A stretch of 36,603 nt of DNA, taken from positions 1-36,603 of the forward strand of contig JAFSMX010000034.1 of the NCBI GenBank assembly GCA_017447725.1. Direction: 5' to 3'. Shown in pieces: positions 8,225 through 33,483 of the stretch. The notes under the pieces are model-generated. The model was not told where the DNA came from and ran no database searches. It saw nothing but the letters and a program-made list of their open reading frames with translations. A program made the position numbers and the translations under genes. The DNA is from Bacilli bacterium (GTDB taxonomy: Bacteria; Bacillota_I; Bacilli_A; RFN20; CAG-826). The stretch's first letter is position 1, and every line of letters starts with the position of its first letter.

Positions 8225-9592
8225 ATGGAAAAGAAATTCGATGAAATCGTAAATCATTTAATTACGAGTGGTTTTGTCTACCAGGATAGTGAAATCTACG
8301 GTGGACTTTCTAACTCCTGGGATTTTGGTCCTTTAGGAGTCGAACTCAAAAACAATATTAAGAAACTCTGGTGGAAGAAGTTTGTTCATGAATCTCCAAC
8401 AAATGTTGGAGTTGATGCAGCAATCCTCATGAATCCAGGTGTTTGGAAAGCAACTGGTCACGTGGCAACATTCGCCGATCCATTAATCGATTGTAAAGAA
8501 TGCCATGCTCGTCACCGCGCTGATAACTTAATCGAAGAACAATATCCTGATGCTGATGTTCATGGAATGAACAATGATCAACTCATGGAATTCATTCGCG
8601 AAAAGAAAGTAAAATGTCCGGTTTGTGGAAAATCTAATTTTACTGACATTCGTCAGTTCAACATGATGTTCCGTACACATATTGGTGTTACCGAAGCTAG
8701 CGAATCATTAGTTTATCTTCGTCCAGAAACCGCCCAAGGTATGTTCGTGAACTTTAAGAATGTTCAAAGAACATCTCGTCGCAAAATTCCATTTGGTATC
8801 TGTAATATTGGTAAATCCTTCCGTAACGAAATCACTCCTGGAAACTTTATTTTCCGTGTGCGTGAGTTCGAACAAATGGAAATGGAATTCTTCTGTAAGC
8901 CAGGCACAGATTTAGAATGGTTTTCCTATTGGAAAGAGTATTGCTTACACTTCCTTGAATCATTCAATATTAAGGAAGAAAACCTTCGTTACCGTGACCA
9001 CGAACCAGAAGAACTTGCTTTCTATAGTAAAGCAACATGTGACGTTGAATATAAGTTCCCATTTGGTTGGGGAGAAATTCTCGGCGTAGCCGATAGAACT
9101 GATTACGACTTAAAACGTCATATGGATGCCTCTGGACAATCTTTAGAATATCTTGATCCAGAAACAAACGAGAAATACATTCCATACTGTATTGAACCAT
9201 CAATGGGTGTTGAACGTATCTTCTTAATGCTCGCATGCGAAGCATACGATGTTGAACAACTTGAAAACGATTCCCGTATCGTCATGCACTTCTCACCAAA
9301 GGTTGCTCCATATTTAGCTGCTGTTCTTCCATTAAGTAAACAATTAGCTCCACAAGCTAAAGAAGTTTTAGCAAAGCTAAACAAATACTTCTCTGTTACT
9401 TATGATGAAACAGCAAGTATTGGTAAACGTTATCGTCGTCAAGACGCTATCGGAACACCTTACTGTATAACAGTAGACTTCGATACTGAAACCGATGGAT
9501 GTGTTACAATCCGTGATCGCGACACCATGGAACAAGTCCGAATCAAAGTCGATGAAGTCCGCAACTTCTTAGAAAGCAAAATTATTGATTAG
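8225..9592 (+). CDS. glyQS: Glycyl-tRNA synthetase, dimeric class II type
   Basis: A 455-residue class IIa synthetase of the single-chain alpha2 type (archaeal/eukaryotic-like, also in many Gram-positives), which charges tRNA-Gly. Class II motifs are visible: motif 2 region [25 protein letters not shown], and motif 3 [25 protein letters not shown] is a glycine-site signature. An insert has zinc-type pairs CKEC and CPVC. The anticodon-binding domain is at the C-terminus. GAGGT lies 6 nt before the ATG. Many Firmicutes glyQS genes are T-box controlled, but the 91-nt upstream gap here holds no T-box. The stop codon sits in a TTAGTAA repeat. Confidence 0.96.
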
Positions 9593-21146: not shown

Positions 21147-23090
21147 ATGTCAGAAACAAATAAAAACACGTCTTATACTGCTGCCGATATTGATCTTTTA
21201 GAGGGTCTTTCTGGTGTAAGAAAAAGACCAGCCATGTACATCGGTTCAACTAACCTCAATGGTCTACATCATTTGGTGTGGGAAATTGTTGATAACGCGG
21301 TTGACGAAGCACTCAATGGTTATGGTAATGAAATTAACTTAACCATCCATAAGGATGGTTCTTTATCAGTTTTAGATGGTGGTCGAGGTATTCCAGTCGA
21401 CATTCATAAAGCTACTGGAATGCCGGCTGTTCAACTCATTTTTACCACCCTCCATTCTGGTGGAAAATTCTCCAATAAAGCCTACCAAAGTAGTGCTGGT
21501 CTACACGGTGTCGGAAGTTCTGTTACAAACGCCCTTTCTGACTACTGTGATGTGACTGTTTTTAGGGATGGAAAAATCTATCATATTCGTTTTAAAGATG
21601 GTGGAAAACTTGAGACTCCACTCGAGGTTCTTGGTAACACCAAGAAGCGTGGTTCGATGATCAGATTTAAACCTGACGCACGAATCTTTTCTAGTGTTGA
21701 TTTTAAATACGATATTATTGCTAACCACATTCAAGAAAGTGCTTATCTTCTCCGTGGTGTAAAATTCACTCTTCATGATGAAAGAAGTGGTCAACATGCG
21801 GAATTCTGCTATAAAGACGGAATTAAAGAGTATGTGAACTACCTCACTGAGAAAAAACAACGTATTGGTGAGTCGATTTATTTCGAAGGAAAAGAAAACG
21901 GCATTGCTATTAGTATTGCTTTGCAATACTGTTCCGATGATTATCAAGAAACAATCTATTCTTACGCTAACAATGTCAGAACCCGTGACGGTGGTACTCA
22001 TGAACAAGGTTTACGTGCTGGCTTAACTAAAATTGTGAACGATTATGCCGAACAAAATAACCTTTTACGAAGTAAACAAAAACTCGATGGAAATGACATC
22101 CGTGAAGGTTTAACCGCAATTATTTCCTTAAAAATACCTGAGGAAAAGCTCGAATATGAAGGTCAAACTAAGCAAAAACTTGGTACTCCTGAAGCTTTGC
22201 CTCTTGTAACTAACTTTATTTATAATAACTTTAGTTATTATATGAATGAACACAAAGATTTTGCTGTTTCGTTAATCCAGAAATGTTTGAAGGCTCAAAG
22301 TGCTCGTTTAGCGGCAAGAAAAGCCAAAGAAGAGATCCGTTCTAAGAAAAGTATCAAACAAGACATTGTCTTGTCTGATAAACTTACTCCAGCAACCTCT
22401 AAGGATTATGATAGTAACGAATTATTCATTGTTGAGGGTGATTCTGCTGGTGGAACAGCGAAAAACTCACGTGATCGAAGCCATCAAGCAATCTTACCAC
22501 TTCGTGGTAAACCATTAAATACTTTTGGGCTTCCTTTAGATAAAGTCCTTAAAAATGAAGAATGTGCGACATTAATTAACACCATCGGAACAGGTGTGAA
22601 TGAGTCATTTAATATCGATCATGCCAGATATGGCAAAATCATTATTATGACTGATGCTGATACCGATGGAGCACACATTCAAACACTTTTAATTACCTTC
22701 TTCTATAACTTTATGCCTGAACTCATTAAGAAAGGCCGACTCTTTGTCGCAATGCCTCCTTTATACCGAGTTCAAAGAGAAGTGAATCATAAAATGATTC
22801 ATCGATATGCTTGGGATGATGCAGGATTAGAACAAGCCAAGAAAGAAGTAGGCCCTGGATGTAAGGTTTCCCGCTATAAAGGTTTAGGCGAAATGAACGC
22901 TGATCAACTTTGGGAAACAACCATGAATCCAGTGACAAGACAATTAACTCAAGTCACAATTGAAGATTCCTTATTAGCAGCCCAAGAATTAACTATTTTA
23001 ATGGGTAATGACCCAGCTACAAGACGTCGTTGGATCGAAGAAAATATTAACTTCAACGAAATTGATTCGTTTATTGATGAGGTGAAATAA
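21147..23090 (+). CDS. parE: DNA topoisomerase IV subunit B
   Basis: A 647-residue type IIA topoisomerase ATPase subunit. The GHKL ATP site has EIVDNAVDEALNG, DGGRGIPV and GLHGVGSSVTNALS. The TOPRIM domain has EGDSAGG (about 429-435) and DADTDGAH (about 501-508). Assignment to ParE rather than GyrB rests on the partner subunit, which lacks a GyrA box, and on linkage to plsY as in B. subtilis. Topo IV decatenates sister chromosomes, and the locus lies about 6 kb from the probable dif site. parC follows after one nucleotide. Confidence 0.9.
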   Translation: MSETNKNTSYTAADIDLLEGLSGVRKRPAMYIGSTNLNGLHHLVWEIVDNAVDEALNGYGNEINLTIHKDGSLSVLDGGRGIPVDIHKATGMPAVQLIFTTLHSGGKFSNKAYQSSAGLHGVGSSVTNALSDYCDVTVFRDGKIYHIRFKDGGKLETPLEVLGNTKKRGSMIRFKPDARIFSSVDFKYDIIANHIQESAYLLRGVKFTLHDERSGQHAEFCYKDGIKEYVNYLTEKKQRIGESIYFEGKENGIAISIALQYCSDDYQETIYSYANNVRTRDGGTHEQGLRAGLTKIVNDYAEQNNLLRSKQKLDGNDIREGLTAIISLKIPEEKLEYEGQTKQKLGTPEALPLVTNFIYNNFSYYMNEHKDFAVSLIQKCLKAQSARLAARKAKEEIRSKKSIKQDIVLSDKLTPATSKDYDSNELFIVEGDSAGGTAKNSRDRSHQAILPLRGKPLNTFGLPLDKVLKNEECATLINTIGTGVNESFNIDHARYGKIIIMTDADTDGAHIQTLLITFFYNFMPELIKKGRLFVAMPPLYRVQREVNHKMIHRYAWDDAGLEQAKKEVGPGCKVSRYKGLGEMNADQLWETTMNPVTRQLTQVTIEDSLLAAQELTILMGNDPATRRRWIEENINFNEIDSFIDEVK

Positions 23091-23091
23091 G

Positions 23092-25716
23092 ATGGCGAAG
23101 AAAAAAGAAGTTCAACCAGTCGAAATCATCGAAAACATCCATCATGAAACGATGGAAGAGATTATGGGAAGTCGCTTTGCGACTTACGCTAAATACGTCA
23201 TCCAAGATCGGGCGATTCCAGATGCTCGAGATGGTTTAAAACCAGTTCAAAGAAGAATTATTTATGCCATGTACAAAGATGGCAATATTTTCACTCGTCC
23301 AACAAGAAAATGTGCTCACACAGTTGGTGCTGTCATGGGTACTTATCACCCTCATGGTGATAGTTCCATTTATGAAGCGCTTGTTCGTATGAGTCAAACA
23401 TGGAAAGTAAATAACCCATTAATTGACTTCCAAGGTAACAACGGATCCATCGACGGAGATGGTCCTGCGGCTTATCGATATACCGAAGCTCGACTCAGTC
23501 AAATCGCTGAAGAAATGATCCGCGATATTGATAAAGATACAGTGGACATGTCACTCACATTTGACGATGAAAATTTTGAGCCAGTTGTCGTGCCTTCTCG
23601 CTTCCCAAATTTACTTGTAAATGGTAGCGAAGGTATTGCTGTTGGTATGGCCACAGAAATCCCAACACATAACCTCAAAGAGGTTATTGAAGCAATAATT
23701 TATCGCATTAATCACGTTCGAGTTGAGCCAAAAGACCTCCTTCAATTTGTTCCAGGACCAGACTTTCCAGGCGGTGGTTTAATCATCCGCTCAAAGGGTC
23801 TTGAAGACATCTATTTAGAGGGTCGAGGAAGAATCGAAATTCTTTCTAAAACCGAAGTGATTAATACCGAAAAAGAAAAGAAAATTATCGTCACCGAAAT
23901 TCCATATAAAGCAGTCAAAATTGACATTGTTCACGAGATTGATATGCTCCGACATAACAATGTTTTGCCAGGTATTGCGGAAGTTCGTGATGAATCTGAT
24001 CGACAAGGTTTACGCATCGTGATCGATGTCAAAAAAGAAGCGAATATTGACGTTATTCATCAATACCTTTTAAGTAAATCAGGATTACGTTCTTCTTACT
24101 CCGCAAACATGGTCGCGATTGTTAATGGCTCGCCAAAAACAATGAATCTTTTAGATTTCATTGATTGTTATATTGAACACCAAGTGAACGTCATCACAAG
24201 ACGCTCGAATTTTGAACTGAATAAGAACCAATCACGTCTACATATCGTTGACGGTTTAATCAAAGCCATTTCGATTCTTGATGAAGTCGTTGATTTAATT
24301 AGAAAATCAAGAGATAAAGCTGACGCAAAGAAGAATTTACAAGAAAAATTCGGCTTTAGTGAAGCTCAATCCGAAGCGATTGTCATGTTACAACTTTATA
24401 AGTTGTCTAACACTGACATCACGACTCTTTTAAATGAGAAAAAATCCTTAGAAGAGAGAATCGAATTCCTTAAAGGAATTCTTGAAGATCGAAATAAACT
24501 TAATCGTCTACTTTGTAGTGATCTTCGTGAAATCTCCAAAAAATATGGTTACGAGAGAAAAACACAAATTGTTGATAAACATGAATCAACAACCATTGAT
24601 AAACGCGATTTAATTAGTAAAGAACTTGTTCAAGTCGCGATTACTCGTGATGGTTATATGAAATATTCCTCCTTAAAATCATATCGTTCAAGTGGAGAAA
24701 ACCCACTTCCAGGTATGAAAGCTGGAGATGTCCTTGTTTATAATGGAGAAGTTTATACAACTGACTACCTCATTTGTTTTACAAATGATGGAAACTTCCT
24801 TTATATTCCAGTACACCAATTAACCGAAAATAAGTGGAAAGACGAAGGTCGACACATTAACTATTTAATTTCTTTAAATCCTAATGAAAAAATAGTGCGT
24901 GCATATGCGATAGACACGTTTAGAAGTGACCTATTCTTTGCTTTAGTCACTAAAAACGGACAAATTAAGCGTCTTCCAGTCTCAGATTTCCAAGTTGTGC
25001 GTTATTCTAAACCACTGATCTGCATCAAACTACTCCAGGATGATGAATTAGCCGATGTCACATTAACTGATGGAGACTCGAATTTAGTCCTCTTCACTAG
25101 TGACGGAAATTCCACGATGTTTAACGAAAATGAACTACCAACAAGCGGCATGCGAAGTGGTGGTGTAAAATCGTTTGCTAAACTAGGCAAAGCACACATT
25201 GTAAATGTCCTTGCTTATCCAAAGGATAACACTAAAGGAAAAGTCGTTGTGATTACCAATAAAGCCTGTATCAGAATTTACGATGTGGAAAAGACCGAAT
25301 TAACCTCTCGTTTAGGTCGCTCTTCATGTGTCTTTAAATCATTTAAATCTGATGTCCATGAACTTGTTTACGCCTTCAAGCTCAATAAGGAAGAAGAATC
25401 GAATACAATTCGTTTCTTAGATAACATGCAGGAGATTCGTGACATTGTCGTCGATGATTATCATCTCACTCCAATGGATCGATACGCCAAACAAAGTGTC
25501 GAAATGAGCGCCAAAATTCGCTTAATTACACCATTTGTTGAATCAAGTGAATTTGTGGATGATAAAATCGTTTCTCACTACGTTAAAAAAGAAGAAGTTC
25601 CAGACTTCTCTAAAAGTGATGAAAAAGAAGAAGCTTCTTTAGAAGAAATTAAGGAAGAAGAGGAAAAAGGCTACACCCAAATTTCTATCTTCGACGATGA
25701 TTTCTTAAACGAATAA
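23092..25716 (+). CDS. parC: DNA topoisomerase IV subunit A
   Basis: An 874-residue cleavage subunit. The catalytic tyrosine is Y130 in AAYRYTEARL. The quinolone region reads HPHGDSSIYEA with S91 and E95, the usual sensitive-type residues. No GyrA box (QRRGGKG) is seen in the C-terminal propeller, which supports ParC. The last 45 residues are very acidic. GAGGTG at the end of parE serves as ribosome binding site. An intrinsic terminator ends the two-gene unit. Confidence 0.92.
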   Translation: MAKKKEVQPVEIIENIHHETMEEIMGSRFATYAKYVIQDRAIPDARDGLKPVQRRIIYAMYKDGNIFTRPTRKCAHTVGAVMGTYHPHGDSSIYEALVRMSQTWKVNNPLIDFQGNNGSIDGDGPAAYRYTEARLSQIAEEMIRDIDKDTVDMSLTFDDENFEPVVVPSRFPNLLVNGSEGIAVGMATEIPTHNLKEVIEAIIYRINHVRVEPKDLLQFVPGPDFPGGGLIIRSKGLEDIYLEGRGRIEILSKTEVINTEKEKKIIVTEIPYKAVKIDIVHEIDMLRHNNVLPGIAEVRDESDRQGLRIVIDVKKEANIDVIHQYLLSKSGLRSSYSANMVAIVNGSPKTMNLLDFIDCYIEHQVNVITRRSNFELNKNQSRLHIVDGLIKAISILDEVVDLIRKSRDKADAKKNLQEKFGFSEAQSEAIVMLQLYKLSNTDITTLLNEKKSLEERIEFLKGILEDRNKLNRLLCSDLREISKKYGYERKTQIVDKHESTTIDKRDLISKELVQVAITRDGYMKYSSLKSYRSSGENPLPGMKAGDVLVYNGEVYTTDYLICFTNDGNFLYIPVHQLTENKWKDEGRHINYLISLNPNEKIVRAYAIDTFRSDLFFALVTKNGQIKRLPVSDFQVVRYSKPLICIKLLQDDELADVTLTDGDSNLVLFTSDGNSTMFNENELPTSGMRSGGVKSFAKLGKAHIVNVLAYPKDNTKGKVVVITNKACIRIYDVEKTELTSRLGRSSCVFKSFKSDVHELVYAFKLNKEEESNTIRFLDNMQEIRDIVVDDYHLTPMDRYAKQSVEMSAKIRLITPFVESSEFVDDKIVSHYVKKEEVPDFSKSDEKEEASLEEIKEEEEKGYTQISIFDDDFLNE

Positions 25717-27488: not shown

Positions 27489-28592
27489 ATGGCTAATTAC
27501 ATCATTTACGGTGGATCTTTTGATCCAATTCATAACGGTCATCTTCGTATTGCCCGCGCTGCCACGCTAAAGCTTAACGCTGACGTGATTTTCGTGCCTG
27601 CCCGCTCACCTCGTTGGAAAGAGTGTGAAGCTAGTGCAGAAGATCGTTTAAAAATGATGAAACTTGTTTTACGAGCTTACGCTCCAGCAGGTTCGATGAT
27701 TTCTGACTTTGAATTAAAATCCAAAAGTGATGTCAATTATACAATTGATACAGTTCGTTATTTCTTAAAGAAATACCCAACATCAAAATTCTATCTTTTA
27801 ATTGGTGGAGATCAAGTTAATAAATTCCCAGATTGGAAAGAAGCGGCGGTGCTTAGTCAATTAACACAAATCGTTTTTGTTCCACGTCCAGGAGTTTTAA
27901 TTAACGAAGACATTGTATATAAATACAATATGCTTAATTTAAACTATCTAGAAAGCGGTGAAGTTAGCTCAACTGATGTTAGACTCGGTTTATCTCATGA
28001 TCTACCGCAAGAAGTTTTAAATTATATTGAAAAGAATCGTCTTTACTTTGTAAAGAAGCTATCTGAATATGTTGATGAGAAACGTCTTCTTCACTCAATT
28101 GAAGTTGCTAAGCTTTCTTATCAAATCGCTTGTGTAAATAATCTAGAGAATCCTTCAAGATTCTACTTTACTGGTTTATTTCACGATATTGGAAAGCTTG
28201 CCAATTATGGAAAAATTAATCCAGAAGAAGTCATGAAGAATGAATATTCGGATTATTTAGACATGCCAAAATTCGCATATCACCAATTTGTTGGTGAATA
28301 TATTTTAAAAAATGACCTAAACATTCAAGATGAAGAAGTCTTAAATGCGGTGAAATTCCATTGTACAGGTTCTGCAAATATGAGCCAACTTGGAATGGTG
28401 GTTTATGCCGCAGATAAAATTGAGCCAACTCGTCAATTTGATTCTCGTTTCTTAATTAATTCTTGTTTAAAGAATTGGAAACAAGGCTTTTTAGACACGT
28501 TAGCGGATAATCGCAAATATTTGCTTGCCCATGCAAAAGATATTGAAAATAGACTAACTCATGAGTGTTTTAAGATGTATTTAGGAGATTAA
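27489..28592 (+). CDS. nadD: Fused nicotinate-nucleotide adenylyltransferase and YqeK HD hydrolase
   Basis: A 367-residue two-domain protein. Residues 1 to about 190 are NadD: GGSFDPIHNGH with HxGH at 15-18, LLIGGDQVNKFPDW, and SSTDVR near 160-165; it makes nicotinic acid adenine dinucleotide in NAD synthesis. From about 195 it is a YqeK-type HD domain, with H202, H232-D233 (FHDIGK), H265 and D309, expected to hydrolyse diadenosine tetraphosphate. B. subtilis has two separate genes in this order; fusion is known in mollicutes. No ribosome binding site precedes the ATG, so coupling with yqeH is likely. Confidence 0.93.
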   Translation: MANYIIYGGSFDPIHNGHLRIARAATLKLNADVIFVPARSPRWKECEASAEDRLKMMKLVLRAYAPAGSMISDFELKSKSDVNYTIDTVRYFLKKYPTSKFYLLIGGDQVNKFPDWKEAAVLSQLTQIVFVPRPGVLINEDIVYKYNMLNLNYLESGEVSSTDVRLGLSHDLPQEVLNYIEKNRLYFVKKLSEYVDEKRLLHSIEVAKLSYQIACVNNLENPSRFYFTGLFHDIGKLANYGKINPEEVMKNEYSDYLDMPKFAYHQFVGEYILKNDLNIQDEEVLNAVKFHCTGSANMSQLGMVVYAADKIEPTRQFDSRFLINSCLKNWKQGFLDTLADNRKYLLAHAKDIENRLTHECFKMYLGD

Positions 28593-28594
28593 GT

Positions 28595-28921
28595 ATGGAT
28601 AAAGTTGTTACATTAATTAAAAAAGTCCTCGAAGATCATAAGGCAGAAGACATTTCTGTGATTGATGTTTCCGAAAGAACACCTTTCGCGGAGTATTATG
28701 TTCTTTGTTCAGCCACGAATATTCGTCAAATCGGCGCCTTAGCTGACGCAGTTATTGATAAACTCGAGGAAAAGAAGATTAATTATTCCCATAAAGAAGG
28801 AACTCCTGAATCTGGATGGATTTTGATTGATGCTTATCATGTCATTGTGAATGTTTTCTCGAAAGAAGAAAGAGAAAGAGTTTCCATCGAGCAAGTCTTA
28901 TCTAACTCGAAAAAGAAGTAA
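28595..28921 (+). CDS. rsfS: Ribosomal silencing factor RsfS
   Basis: A 108-residue protein that binds uL14 and blocks subunit joining when nutrients are short. EDISVIDVSERTPFAEYYVLCSATNIRQI and EGTPESGWILIDAYHVIVNVFS are the family signature. TTAGGAGAT before the ATG is the ribosome binding site. The gene closes the yqeG operon. The probable dif site begins at the last base of its stop codon, followed by an intrinsic terminator. Confidence 0.95.
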   Translation: MDKVVTLIKKVLEDHKAEDISVIDVSERTPFAEYYVLCSATNIRQIGALADAVIDKLEEKKINYSHKEGTPESGWILIDAYHVIVNVFSKEERERVSIEQVLSNSKKK

Positions 28922-28948
28922 CTTCGCATAAGGGATATTATGTTAACC
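28921..28948 (+). other. Probable dif site (XerC/XerD recombination site)
   Basis: A 28-bp 11+6+11 structure: XerC-type arm ACTTCGCATAA (28921-28931), centre GGGATA (28932-28937) and XerD-type arm TTATGTTAACC (28938-28948). From memory of the E. coli dif, 8 of 11, 4 of 6 and 9 of 11 positions agree. The B. subtilis dif arms agree at 8 and 9 of 11, including the leading ACTTC. The inner arms form an inverted CATAA/TTATG. The position marks the switch from mainly plus to mainly minus genes. Chromosome dimers would be resolved here by Xer recombinases; xerD lies 3.7 kb away. Confidence 0.82.
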
Positions 28949-28959
28949 AATTATTAAGA

Positions 28960-28986
28960 AAGAGCGAATTAATCGTTCTTTTTTAT
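28960..28986 (+). terminator. Intrinsic terminator of the yqeG-rsfS operon
   Basis: AAGAGCGA (28960-28967) pairs with TCGTTCTT (28973-28980), with one G-U pair, followed by T residues. It starts 11 bp after the dif site. Confidence 0.75.
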
Positions 28987-29010
28987 TACTTTATTATCCT
29001 ATTATATTAA

Positions 29011-29037
29011 AAAGAAAAAGCGCTGTTTTAGCACTTT
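29011..29037 (-). terminator. Intrinsic terminator of the ABC permease gene
   Basis: On the minus strand AAAGTGCT and AGCGCTTT (29030-29037 and 29017-29024) form an 8-bp stem with one G-U pair, followed by a T-rich run. Confidence 0.7.
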
Positions 29038-29060
29038 TCCACATATTTCGATGTGAATAA
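29035..29060. other. Pair of DnaA-box-like sequences
   Basis: TTTTCCACA (29035-29043, one mismatch to TTATCCACA) on the plus strand and TTATTCACA (29052-29060, perfect TTATNCACA) on the minus strand face each other, 8 bp apart. They are 3 bp from a CTACTAA repeat and about 100 bp from the dif site. Confidence 0.4.
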
Positions 29061-29063
29061 CAT

Positions 29064-29081
29064 CTACTAATTATCTACTAA
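29064..29081 (-). repeat. 11-nt periodic TTAGTAG repeat at permease 3' end
   Basis: CTACTAA on the plus strand at 29064 and 29075 (TTAGTAG on the gene strand), 11 nt apart. The permease stop codon lies between the two units. The 14-mer TTAGTAGATAATTA is shared with the plsY array. Confidence 0.7.
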
Positions 29082-29847
29082 TTCCTGTTTTCACTGCCAC
29101 TTTATTTCTTAAGTAATTAGCCGGGATTGATACGATAATCATGAGTAAAATCGCTATCAAAGAATAACCAAAAATGACCGCCATATTCGTTGGGTCGTTA
29201 ATTTGGGCAGCCTTGATCAAACTACCTAAACCATTACGCGTATAACCTGTGACAATCTCGGACATAATTTCTATCTTAAAAGATAGAGAAAACGATGAAA
29301 TGATACCAACTATTAAATAAGGGAGAGCTAATGGAATTTGAATTCTAAAGACAGTTTGGATTCCTTTACCACCATCGATTTTCACCGCATCCAAAATCTG
29401 TGGATCAATATTTCTCATGCCATTAACTAGCGATTCATAAAGAATTGGTAACGATATAATCGTTACAAGAAAACATGGGGCGTATTCTGCTTTAACTAAA
29501 ACAACAAACAGGAAGACAACTGCCGCTGTTGGAATCGCTTTTAAAGCAGTCATCAGCGGAGACATTACTATGTAAAGTTTCTCGCTGTCTCGAACAATTA
29601 AAGCGAGGATTCCAGCAATGATAAACGCAATAAAGAATCCAATAAGCATTTTTAAAAGAGAATAAGCTAAACATTGGTATGTATAACCAATTCCGAGTAA
29701 CTTCACCATCGCTTCAAATGTCACAATTGGTGAAGGAAAAATCATTGAATTCTTATCAAAGATAAGCGTTGCTAAAAACCATAATCCAAAAAGAAGAATG
29801 ATTCCTAAAATGATTAAAACATACTTATTTGAAATAAATTTCTTCAT
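29071..29847 (-). CDS. ABC transporter permease, NitT/TauT-like
   Basis: A 258-residue inner-membrane permease of the BPD_transp_1 family with about six helices. The EAA loop that docks the ATPase reads DAVKIDGGKGIQTVFRIQIPLALP. The start at 29847 gives a standard N-terminus with a membrane helix; the open frame extends 27 residues upstream over the lipoprotein gene but that part looks non-native. It overlaps the lipoprotein gene by 23 nt in another frame and forms an operon with it. No ATPase gene is adjacent, so one must be supplied from elsewhere. Substrate cannot be told; sulfonate, nitrate, thiamine-precursor and riboflavin-type systems share this fold. Confidence 0.85.
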   Translation of the reverse strand: MKKFISNKYVLIILGIILLFGLWFLATLIFDKNSMIFPSPIVTFEAMVKLLGIGYTYQCLAYSLLKMLIGFFIAFIIAGILALIVRDSEKLYIVMSPLMTALKAIPTAAVVFLFVVLVKAEYAPCFLVTIISLPILYESLVNGMRNIDPQILDAVKIDGGKGIQTVFRIQIPLALPYLIVGIISSFSLSFKIEIMSEIVTGYTRNGLGSLIKAAQINDPTNMAVIFGYSLIAILLMIIVSIPANYLRNKVAVKTGISR

Positions 29848-30804: not shown

Positions 30805-31380
30805 ATGGATTTCATTCAAATTTTAGAACAAGAAAACATCCAATCAAAGTTCTTTCCTAAAGGAACTGTTCTTTTTCATGAAGGAGATGAATGTCAAAAC
30901 ATTGGGTTAGTTAAAACCGGTTACATTCGCATTCAATCGTATTCGATCAAAGGAACGGAAATTGTCTATAACGAGATTAAGCCAAATGATTTTTTCGGTG
31001 TTCATCTGGTTTTTGATCAAAATAACAAATACCGTGGAAATGTTGTCGCAATTGAAGATTGTCAAATCTTCGTTATTTCTAAAGTAGAGTTCCAAAGACT
31101 TATACAAGAAAATACCGAATTCTTCTTAGAATTCATGAAACTAGAATCTTCGTTCGTGAAATCACTTAATCAGCATATCAAACTGTTAACATTATCTAGC
31201 GCTGAGGAGCGTTTTATTTTCTATCTTCAATCCAACGGCGGACAAATCACATACAAGAGCATCACCACACTTGCTCAAAGTGTTCATTTAGAGCGAGAGA
31301 CTCTGTCTCGCCTTATTTCAAAATTAGAAAAAAGGCATCTCATCAGACGCCTTTCTCATCAAATAATTTTACTAAACTAG
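30805..31380 (+). CDS. CRP/FNR-family transcriptional regulator
   Basis: A 191-residue regulator with an N-terminal cyclic-nucleotide-type beta roll ([23 protein letters not shown]), a dimer helix around 110-140 and a C-terminal winged helix. The recognition helix [16 protein letters not shown] has the R-E-x3-R arrangement that reads GTGA in CRP. Only two cysteines are present, so the four-cysteine Fe-S site of FNR is absent; the classical cAMP pocket is not evident either, and the signal is unknown. It likely binds the palindrome 8 nt upstream, activating the divergent ABC operon and controlling itself. It converges with deoB in a 4-bp overlap, CTAG. Confidence 0.88.
31328..31354 (-). terminator. 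Terminator of deoB, embedded in the regulator gene
   Basis: On the minus strand AAAGGC and GCCTTT with inner TCT/AGA pairing form a hairpin followed by six T residues, 23 nt beyond the deoB stop. The plus strand of these bases encodes KRHLIRRLS at the C-terminus of the regulator. Confidence 0.65.
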
Positions 31381-32573
31381 TCTTCAAGAAGTTCTTTGAT
31401 TGGTTTTCCAATCATGTTATCAGCTTTCTTAAGACCGAAGTTTGCTAAGATGGTTTCACCAATATCAGCGAAGCATTCACGTTCTTCCAGATATTTACCA
31501 TGTTTGAATGATTTGCTAAAGCAAAGTAGAGGAACTTTTTCACGGGTATGATCTGTGCCAGTGTGGGTTGGATCATTTCCGTGGTCAGCAGTAACCATAA
31601 TTAAGTCATCTTCTTTAGAAGCTTCCATGAGTTCACCAAGTTGAACATCGAATTCTTCAAGAGCTTTTCCATATCCGAGTGGATTACGACGATGGCCGTA
31701 TTCAGAGTCGAATTCAACTAAGTTGATGTAACATAAACCTTCAAAGTCATGGTTCTTACATTCATCAATGGTTTTTTCCATTCCGTCTTTGTTGGAAACG
31801 GTTTTTTGAGTTTTAACAACACCGGAACCATTGAAGATGTCCCCAATCTTACCAATGCAGGAAACCATATAACCATTCTTTTCAAGAATGTTCATCGCAG
31901 TAGTTCCGCTTGGGGAGAGAGCTAAGTCATGACGGTTTGGTGTTCTTTTGAAGTTACTTGGATTATCACCGATGTATGGACGAGCGATAACACGTCCGAC
32001 GTAGTATTCTGGGCGTAAGCAGATTTCACGAGCGATTTCACAGCAACGATATAATTCTTGAACGCCAGTAACTTCTTCGTGAGCTGCAATCTGTAAAACA
32101 GAGTCTGCGGAAGTATAGACGATTAAAGAATTTTCACGCATTTGTTGTTCGCCAAGTTCTTTAATAATTTCGGTTCCACTGGCAGCTTTATTTCCGATTA
32201 ATTTATGACCAGTTTTTTCCGCAAGTTCATCCATTAAAGCTTTTGGGAAACCAGTATCGGTAAATGTAATGAATGGTTTAGTTGTATAAATACCCATCAT
32301 TTCCCAGTGACCAGTCATGGTGTCTTTACCGTTACTTGCTTCTCTAAGTCTCATGCTATAAGCATGTGGATGGTTAACTTTTGTTGTTCCTTTAACAGGA
32401 GCAAGATCACCAATACCAAGGGAATTCATGTTTGGAACGTTTAATCCACCACATTTTTCTGCGGTATGAACCCAGGTATTTGTTCCTTTATCGCCAAACT
32501 TTTCTGCATCTGGCATTTCGCCAATACCGGCTGAGTCAGTGACGATAACGAATATTCTTTTGAATTTTTTCAT
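31377..32573 (-). CDS. deoB: Phosphopentomutase
   Basis: A 398-residue alkaline-phosphatase-superfamily mutase that interconverts ribose or deoxyribose 1- and 5-phosphates. [13 protein letters not shown] holds the first metal ligand D13, [11 protein letters not shown] contains the phosphorylated threonine, and [20 protein letters not shown] holds further metal ligands. AGGAG precedes the ATG. It follows xerD on the same strand, as in B. subtilis (ripX-drm), although purine nucleoside phosphorylase is not next. Its product feeds DeoC (3486-4130). Confidence 0.96.
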
Positions 32574-32604: not shown

Positions 32605-33483
32605 CTATTTTCTTTTGCTATACAAATCATACGCTTCAAGAATTCGTCGAGTAGAGATATTTAAATAAATCTGTGTTGTCGCAATATTGCTATGACCAAG
32701 CATTTCTTGAACAGTACGGATGTCAGCACTACTTTCTAAAAGATGAGTTGCAAAGCAATGTCTTAAGGTATGAGGGGAAATTTCCTCTTGAATTCCAACC
32801 ATTTCAGCGTACTTTTTGACTTGTAAAAAGAAGTATTGTCGAGAAAGAGGTTTACCATAACGATTTAAGAAAACAATTTCGCTTCTCGCACCAGGATTTT
32901 TCTTTCGGCCGTGCTCAAGGTATCTCACTAAATATTCTTTCGCGAACTCGCCAAACGGAACCTTTCTTTGCTTGCTTCCTTTACCAATAACCGTGATGAT
33001 TCCTCTTTCTAATGAGATGTTTTTCATTTTTAATGAAAGAAGTTCACTTACTCTTAATCCTGAAGCATACATGATTTCGAGCATTGCTCGGTCTCGTTCA
33101 CCTTCTGGTTTATCTAAATCAGGTGCTTCGAGTAGTTTTTCAACTTGCTCTACGCTCAAAATAGATGGAAGATGTTTCATTCCCTTAGGTATTTCAACTT
33201 CATTCATTGGGACATGGACAAAATCTTCTTTTTCCAAGAAAACATAGAAGTTTTTAAGGGAAGATAATCGACGAGCAATTGTTGCAGTCGACATTTCTTT
33301 TTTACTCTGGATACGAATGAAATCGCCAATGTCAGTCGGTTGAATTTCTTCGGTATCATTATATTTGAATTCTTTAAAGAATTCGTTTAAATCGTAAGCA
33401 TAAGAAAGAATTGTGTCACTAGATAAACCTTTCTCGACTCTTAAATGTTGAAAAAATAGTTCTTTAGCGCGATTAACGTCCAT
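32605..33483 (-). CDS. xerD: Tyrosine recombinase XerD
   Basis: A 292-residue site-specific recombinase for chromosome dimer resolution. The catalytic set is complete: R144 (ASGLRVSE), K168 (GKGSKQRK), H238 and R241 (HTLRH), H264 (LGHSN) and Y273 (IYLN). The SAM-like N-terminal domain spans about 1-95. Linkage to deoB matches B. subtilis ripX, favouring XerD over XerC. The start overlaps the end of dinB by 11 bp. The probable target dif lies at 28921-28948, and another copy of the XerD arm at 34707-34717. Confidence 0.93.
   Translation of the reverse strand: MDVNRAKELFFQHLRVEKGLSSDTILSYAYDLNEFFKEFKYNDTEEIQPTDIGDFIRIQSKKEMSTATIARRLSSLKNFYVFLEKEDFVHVPMNEVEIPKGMKHLPSILSVEQVEKLLEAPDLDKPEGERDRAMLEIMYASGLRVSELLSLKMKNISLERGIITVIGKGSKQRKVPFGEFAKEYLVRYLEHGRKKNPGARSEIVFLNRYGKPLSRQYFFLQVKKYAEMVGIQEEISPHTLRHCFATHLLESSADIRTVQEMLGHSNIATTQIYLNISTRRILEAYDLYSKRK

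Follow-up and report, generated by a model that had tools for sequence, protein, structure and literature searches.

A predicted chromosomal dif site and replication terminus in an uncultured low-GC Bacilli bacterium

Introduction

The text of Kono et al. (2011) describes predicted dif sites in Firmicutes and in one Tenericutes genome; the site described here is of the same class and stands in the same relation to the GC-skew switch as those, and that text, supplementary site tables aside, makes no mention of the present lineage (PMC3025954). The sequences that guide FtsK are poorly conserved in Bacilli (PMC5357621).

Here we analyze a stretch of 36,603 nt, referred to as the window, which is an entire contig (C29) of a 39-contig draft genome (0.9 Mb, 94% complete) from an uncultured Bacilli bacterium. 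A first-pass annotation had proposed that a 28-mer in this window, laid out as 11+6+11, is the organism's dif and that the window therefore spans the replication terminus. We compared the candidate and its surroundings with those of related genomes.

Results

The sequence ACTTCGCATAAGGGATATTATGTTAACC, 28 bp long, is found exactly at 28921-28948 of the window, and a letter-by-letter check bore out the proposed layout, ACTTCGCATAA-GGGATA-TTATGTTAACC. The site thus has the format of a XerCD site, with two partly palindromic 11-bp arms (palindromic at 7 of 11 positions) around a 6-bp center (Table 1). Allowing up to three mismatches, this was the only match to the 28-mer in the 0.9-Mb draft genome, and the reversed 28-mer, used as a control under the same threshold, matched nowhere in it. 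A gamma-proteobacterial-type dif pattern, based on published consensus sequences and independent of the candidate, also had its sole match in the genome at this position, with two mismatches. By neither search does the draft hold a better dif-like 28-mer elsewhere.

Table 1. Positions of the predicted dif site and of neighboring features in the window.
Feature	Position	Strand	Basis or remark
dif, XerC-side arm ACTTCGCATAA	28921..28931	+	column 7 is C or T, other columns invariant (20 congeneric or near loci)
dif, central region GGGATA	28932..28937	+	varies between species except for the last two bases
dif, XerD-side arm TTATGTTAACC	28938..28948	+	TTATGTTAA invariant in 20/20 congeneric or near loci; last two bases mostly CC
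rsfS	28595..28921	+	TIGR00090, 91.7 bits; last base of stop codon overlaps first base of dif
Intrinsic terminator hairpin after dif	28955..28985	+	fold -13.2 kcal/mol, z -5.3
deoB, phosphopentomutase	31377..32573	-	TIGR01696
xerD, one of two partner recombinases, beside deoB	32605..33483	-	TIGR02225, 324.6 bits (XerC, 294.9); conserved synteny
parE-parC (topoisomerase IV)	21147..25716	+	named by eye from sequence; conserved, 3-8 kb upstream of dif
TGGTGG-type strand-switch interval (plus left, minus right)	28395..29375	.	best switch -525 to +448 bp from dif

A dif-like sequence could nevertheless arise by chance, or be a mere piece of the rsfS transcription terminator. The surroundings are AT-rich intergenic DNA, and a loose 14-base pattern, at up to three mismatches, occurs 17 times in the window against 11.4 times expected by chance. 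Because this loose pattern is so common, our argument rests on uniqueness at low mismatch and on conservation, not on looks alone. We searched 193 relatives with a 26-base version of the site in which three central bases were left free and up to three mismatches were allowed. It matched in 148 of them, nearly always as a single copy, whereas the pattern read backwards matched in only one; the 45 relatives with no match at this threshold may be incomplete drafts or carry diverged sites. Both this difference and the single low-mismatch site in 0.9 Mb speak against a chance match. As for the terminator, the hairpin is a separate element, and the site persists where rsfS has been lost (see below). 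Conservation across genomes thus refutes a chance or terminator origin, which we regard as having a negligible probability.

The few extra matches in relatives lie inside a glmM-like gene or are palindromic duplicates at the site itself. That dif-like matches can arise within genes is a point in favor of chance: in three relatives (G040, G077 and G076; L149 8693, L150 2710 and L151 9339) the match falls inside the glmM-like gene, with codons that read Ala-Ser-His-Asn-Pro-Tyr in two of the three. Given this location, we rejected these matches as coding coincidences; they are a trap for dif prediction programs.

Two relatives show unusual arrangements. One (G165, L155) has two inverted dif copies, at 8708-8735 and 8854-8881, about 120 bp apart, which differ at the last base only and sit within a longer inverted repeat; the pair may be genuine and invertible, or may have arisen in assembly. 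In the other (G180, L154 9635-9713), the XerD arm lies at the outer end of a palindrome whose arms are about 22 bp long, and a second, mirrored dif-like site results.

Across 20 congeneric or near loci, nearly all arm columns reach 2.0 bits, central columns 12-15 carry 0.12-1.39 bits, columns 16-17 are largely conserved, and conservation is lower in the flanks than in the arms. Conserved arms around a variable center are what one would expect at a Xer site, in which the arms are read by proteins and the center need only match that of the partner copy. Arm conservation is partly built in by the search pattern, and to avoid this circularity we used loci fetched by XerD alone as a motif-independent test. 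In all eight such loci with enough flanking DNA, drawn from the bacterium's relatives and two further genomes, dif lies 2.3-4.7 kb from xerD. The XerD-anchored loci of other phyla showed no dif, and those of Paenibacillus showed weak matches only.

GC skew in the window changes sign at the site, from +0.022 on the left to -0.041 on the right, a difference reached in none of 5000 block shuffles, and cumulative skew peaks at 28,964, 16 bp past dif. For the bacterium's own genome the skew covers the 36,603-nt window, and we sampled relatives with long contigs for the scale of the chromosome. On a 648-kb contig of one congener (G019), all 8 sampled stretches before dif had positive skew and all 12 after it negative skew, and the plus-strand share of coding direction fell from 1.00 to 0.17 across the site. 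In a second relative of the same family (G041), represented by a 1.48-Mb contig of a 1.5-Mb genome, skew and coding direction both flip at dif, at 298.5 kb, with the reverse flip near 1.02 Mb. The latter is about 720 kb from dif, roughly half the chromosome, as expected for the origin. Skew also flips at dif in several other families; in G100 the flip has the opposite sign, and in G068 skew is flat. A 2.08-Mb relative at the order level (G161), with incoherent skew and one all-N stretch, was excluded from support. Dif and the skew switch thus coincide in the window and on the G019 and G041 contigs.

Gene direction switches at the same point, as had been proposed. The ORF tables are consistent with 30 of 33 genes on the plus strand to the left, the exceptions being ispH, ispG and plsY, and 6 of 7 on the minus strand to the right, the exception being a Crp-like gene. 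Together, the skew and coding-strand flips support the proposal that the window spans the replication terminus.

The genes around dif keep their arrangement within the genus and, in part, throughout the order. Read from the left, the genus has parE-parC-yqeG-yqeH-nadD/yqeK-(rsfS)-dif, followed on the right by an ABC transporter (an ssuC-like permease and its binding protein), then (crp-like)-deoB-xerD-dinB-dxs. Other families of this order often have rsfS about 1 kb upstream of dif and ssuC or deoB downstream. In the window, nadD and yqeK are fused in one reading frame of 367 aa (27489-28592). Four congeners (G004, G011, G013 and G019; L037, L040, L042 and L047) lack the otherwise near-universal rsfS in the interval from nadD/yqeK to dif, and a profile search of these four drafts found no copy elsewhere. 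All four keep dif, which shows that the site is independent of rsfS. The expectation that related genomes would carry a conserved 28-mer at this place holds, with rsfS a usual rather than an obligate neighbor.

These flanks also bear on whether the site instead stems from a mobile element that uses Xer, such as an IMEX or a pdif module, either as its attachment site or as a remnant of it. Such elements do carry dif-like sites, usually with altered centers or arms in the examples described (PMC3025954, PMC5357621). Here, there is no insertion: the housekeeping genes on both sides keep their synteny throughout the genus, and a single site coincides with the skew switch, with no second dif in the genome. 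We rejected a mobile-element origin on the syntenic flanks and consider it extremely improbable.

The genome encodes two candidate partner recombinases. The xerD gene lies 3.7 kb from dif; the second gene, on contig C7, encodes a protein 34% identical to XerD that scores higher as XerC and adjoins a trmFO-like gene. Both proteins have the R-K-H-R-H-Y catalytic residues, as read by eye, and both narrowly miss the strict NCBIfam XerC/XerD equivalog cut-offs, so that the names rest on relative score and synteny. The short distance between xerD and the site recalls the linked xerS-difSL modules (PMC5357621), and would fit a dif resolved by one XerS- or XerH-like protein alone. A second full-length Xer protein in trmFO-xerC synteny argues against this, as do the 11-6-11 form of the site, which is not the 31-bp difSL, and a score of 128 bits with the XerS model against a cut-off of 267; we judge resolution by a single recombinase to be very unlikely. 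The first-pass annotation had named the xerD beside deoB as the recombinase of dif, which stands insofar as it is one of two, but not as the only one, given the xerC beside trmFO. The genome also encodes one FtsK/SpoIIIE protein, gamma domain included, in one reading frame (PF01580, 173.5 bits; PF09397, 38.3 bits).

Short G-rich words around dif are strongly polar in this genus (the window; L054-L073, L157-L176). Pooled over three congeners, GGTGGTG occurs 132 times pointing towards dif and twice pointing away, and GTGGTGG 119 times and once, which sums to 251 to 3 over both arms. The window itself has 28 TGGTGG words, 26 of them directed towards dif. Plus/minus counts of TGGTGG pooled over loci are 150/20 to the left of dif and 12/80 to the right, and at the best-resolved loci the switch falls within about 0.5 kb of dif; at six loci (L037, L039, L040, L043, L045 and L050) the best switch lies elsewhere, within 10 kb. 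Words directed towards dif are about 2.5- to 4-fold more frequent than a second-order Markov expectation (GGTGGTG and GTGGTGG), and those directed away are below expectation. Polarity is weak in 40-kb samples around dif from other genera; over the sampled G041 chromosome, the counts of polar words are 35/5 and 39/6.

Gene direction is not the cause of this polarity, because in lagging-strand genes of three genomes GTGGTGG is found in the antisense orientation, towards dif, 7, 2 and 4 times, against 0, 0 and 1 times in the sense orientation. Another skewed word, GAAGAAG, was rejected: its sense-strand density is similar in leading and lagging genes, which indicates a coding effect. As with KOPS and SRS, then, the TGGTGG-type words are skewed towards dif, switch there and follow the replication arm. 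They match neither: of the known motifs for KOPS in E. coli and SRS in B. subtilis, GGGNAGGG (KOPS) and GAGAAGGG, there are hardly any copies.

The core of the polar words resembles E. coli Chi, GCTGGTGG, which is also polar, and the words may be Chi or Chi-like sites of AddAB/RecBCD. An AddA-like nuclease-helicase is present in G006, G012, G020 and G041, and was not found in G000, G013, G022 and G023. Chi as the sole cause is weakened by the finding that G023, where no AddA was found, is as polar as G006, which has it, and this tends to favor FtsK guidance over Chi. The gamma recognition-helix region of FtsK reads GIGFPKAGRL, unlike its counterparts in E. coli and B. subtilis, which would fit a different target. 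We tentatively suggest, with somewhat less than even confidence, that the TGGTGG-type words (GGTGGTG/GTGGTGG) are the lineage's own FtsK-orienting code, read by a diverged gamma recognition helix.

Discussion

Its uniqueness, its conservation and its position at the terminus lead us to conclude that the 28-mer is almost certainly the chromosomal dif of this uncultured low-GC Bacilli bacterium, a predicted function that agrees with the original proposal, and that the window spans the replication terminus. Judging from sequence, it is very probably an ordinary dif of the XerCD/FtsK type, canonical in kind, in an uncultured lineage.

By analogy with the well-studied XerCD/dif system, we infer that a dimer left by recombination between sister chromosomes would be resolved at this site. 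At the division septum, FtsK would drive DNA towards the terminus and thereby bring both copies of dif side by side; the ACTTCGCATAA arm would be bound by XerC and the TTATGTTAACC arm by XerD, and cleavage and strand exchange over the 6-base center would then yield two monomers.

The site would locate the terminus of replication for a group of uncultured Bacilli whose genomes are mostly available as drafts, and the arrangement parE-parC ... dif ... deoB-xerD provides a reliable landmark for orienting contigs and checking assemblies. As a candidate FtsK guide specific to one lineage of Bacilli, the polar words lend themselves to testing and, unlike dif itself, may be new.

We compared the site with the reference dif sequences that Kono et al. 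give for E. coli and B. subtilis (PMC3025954). The B. subtilis site, served by RipX (XerD) and CodV (XerC), is also a 28-bp 11-6-11 site at the terminus, and is identical to ours at 20 of 28 positions and at 9 of 11 in the XerD arm. The XerC arm differs, with CGCATAA here, as in E. coli, against CCTAGAA in B. subtilis, and the center here is GGGATA; dif here also has rsfS on one side and an ABC transporter on the other, at a distance of 3.7 kb from xerD. The xerD-deoB and xerC-trmFO linkages correspond to ripX-drm and trmFO-codV of B. subtilis. In their sequence, the polar words are unlike the E. coli KOPS, the B. subtilis SRS and the A-rich L. lactis motif. The E. coli site is identical to ours at 21 of 28 positions, again with 9 of 11 in the XerD arm, and here too XerC and XerD are accompanied by one FtsK that has a gamma domain. 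The two systems differ in two respects: the polar words here are of the TGGTGG type, with hardly any copies of the E. coli KOPS, GGGNAGGG, and the gamma recognition-helix region is RIGYNRAARI in E. coli against GIGFPKAGRL here.
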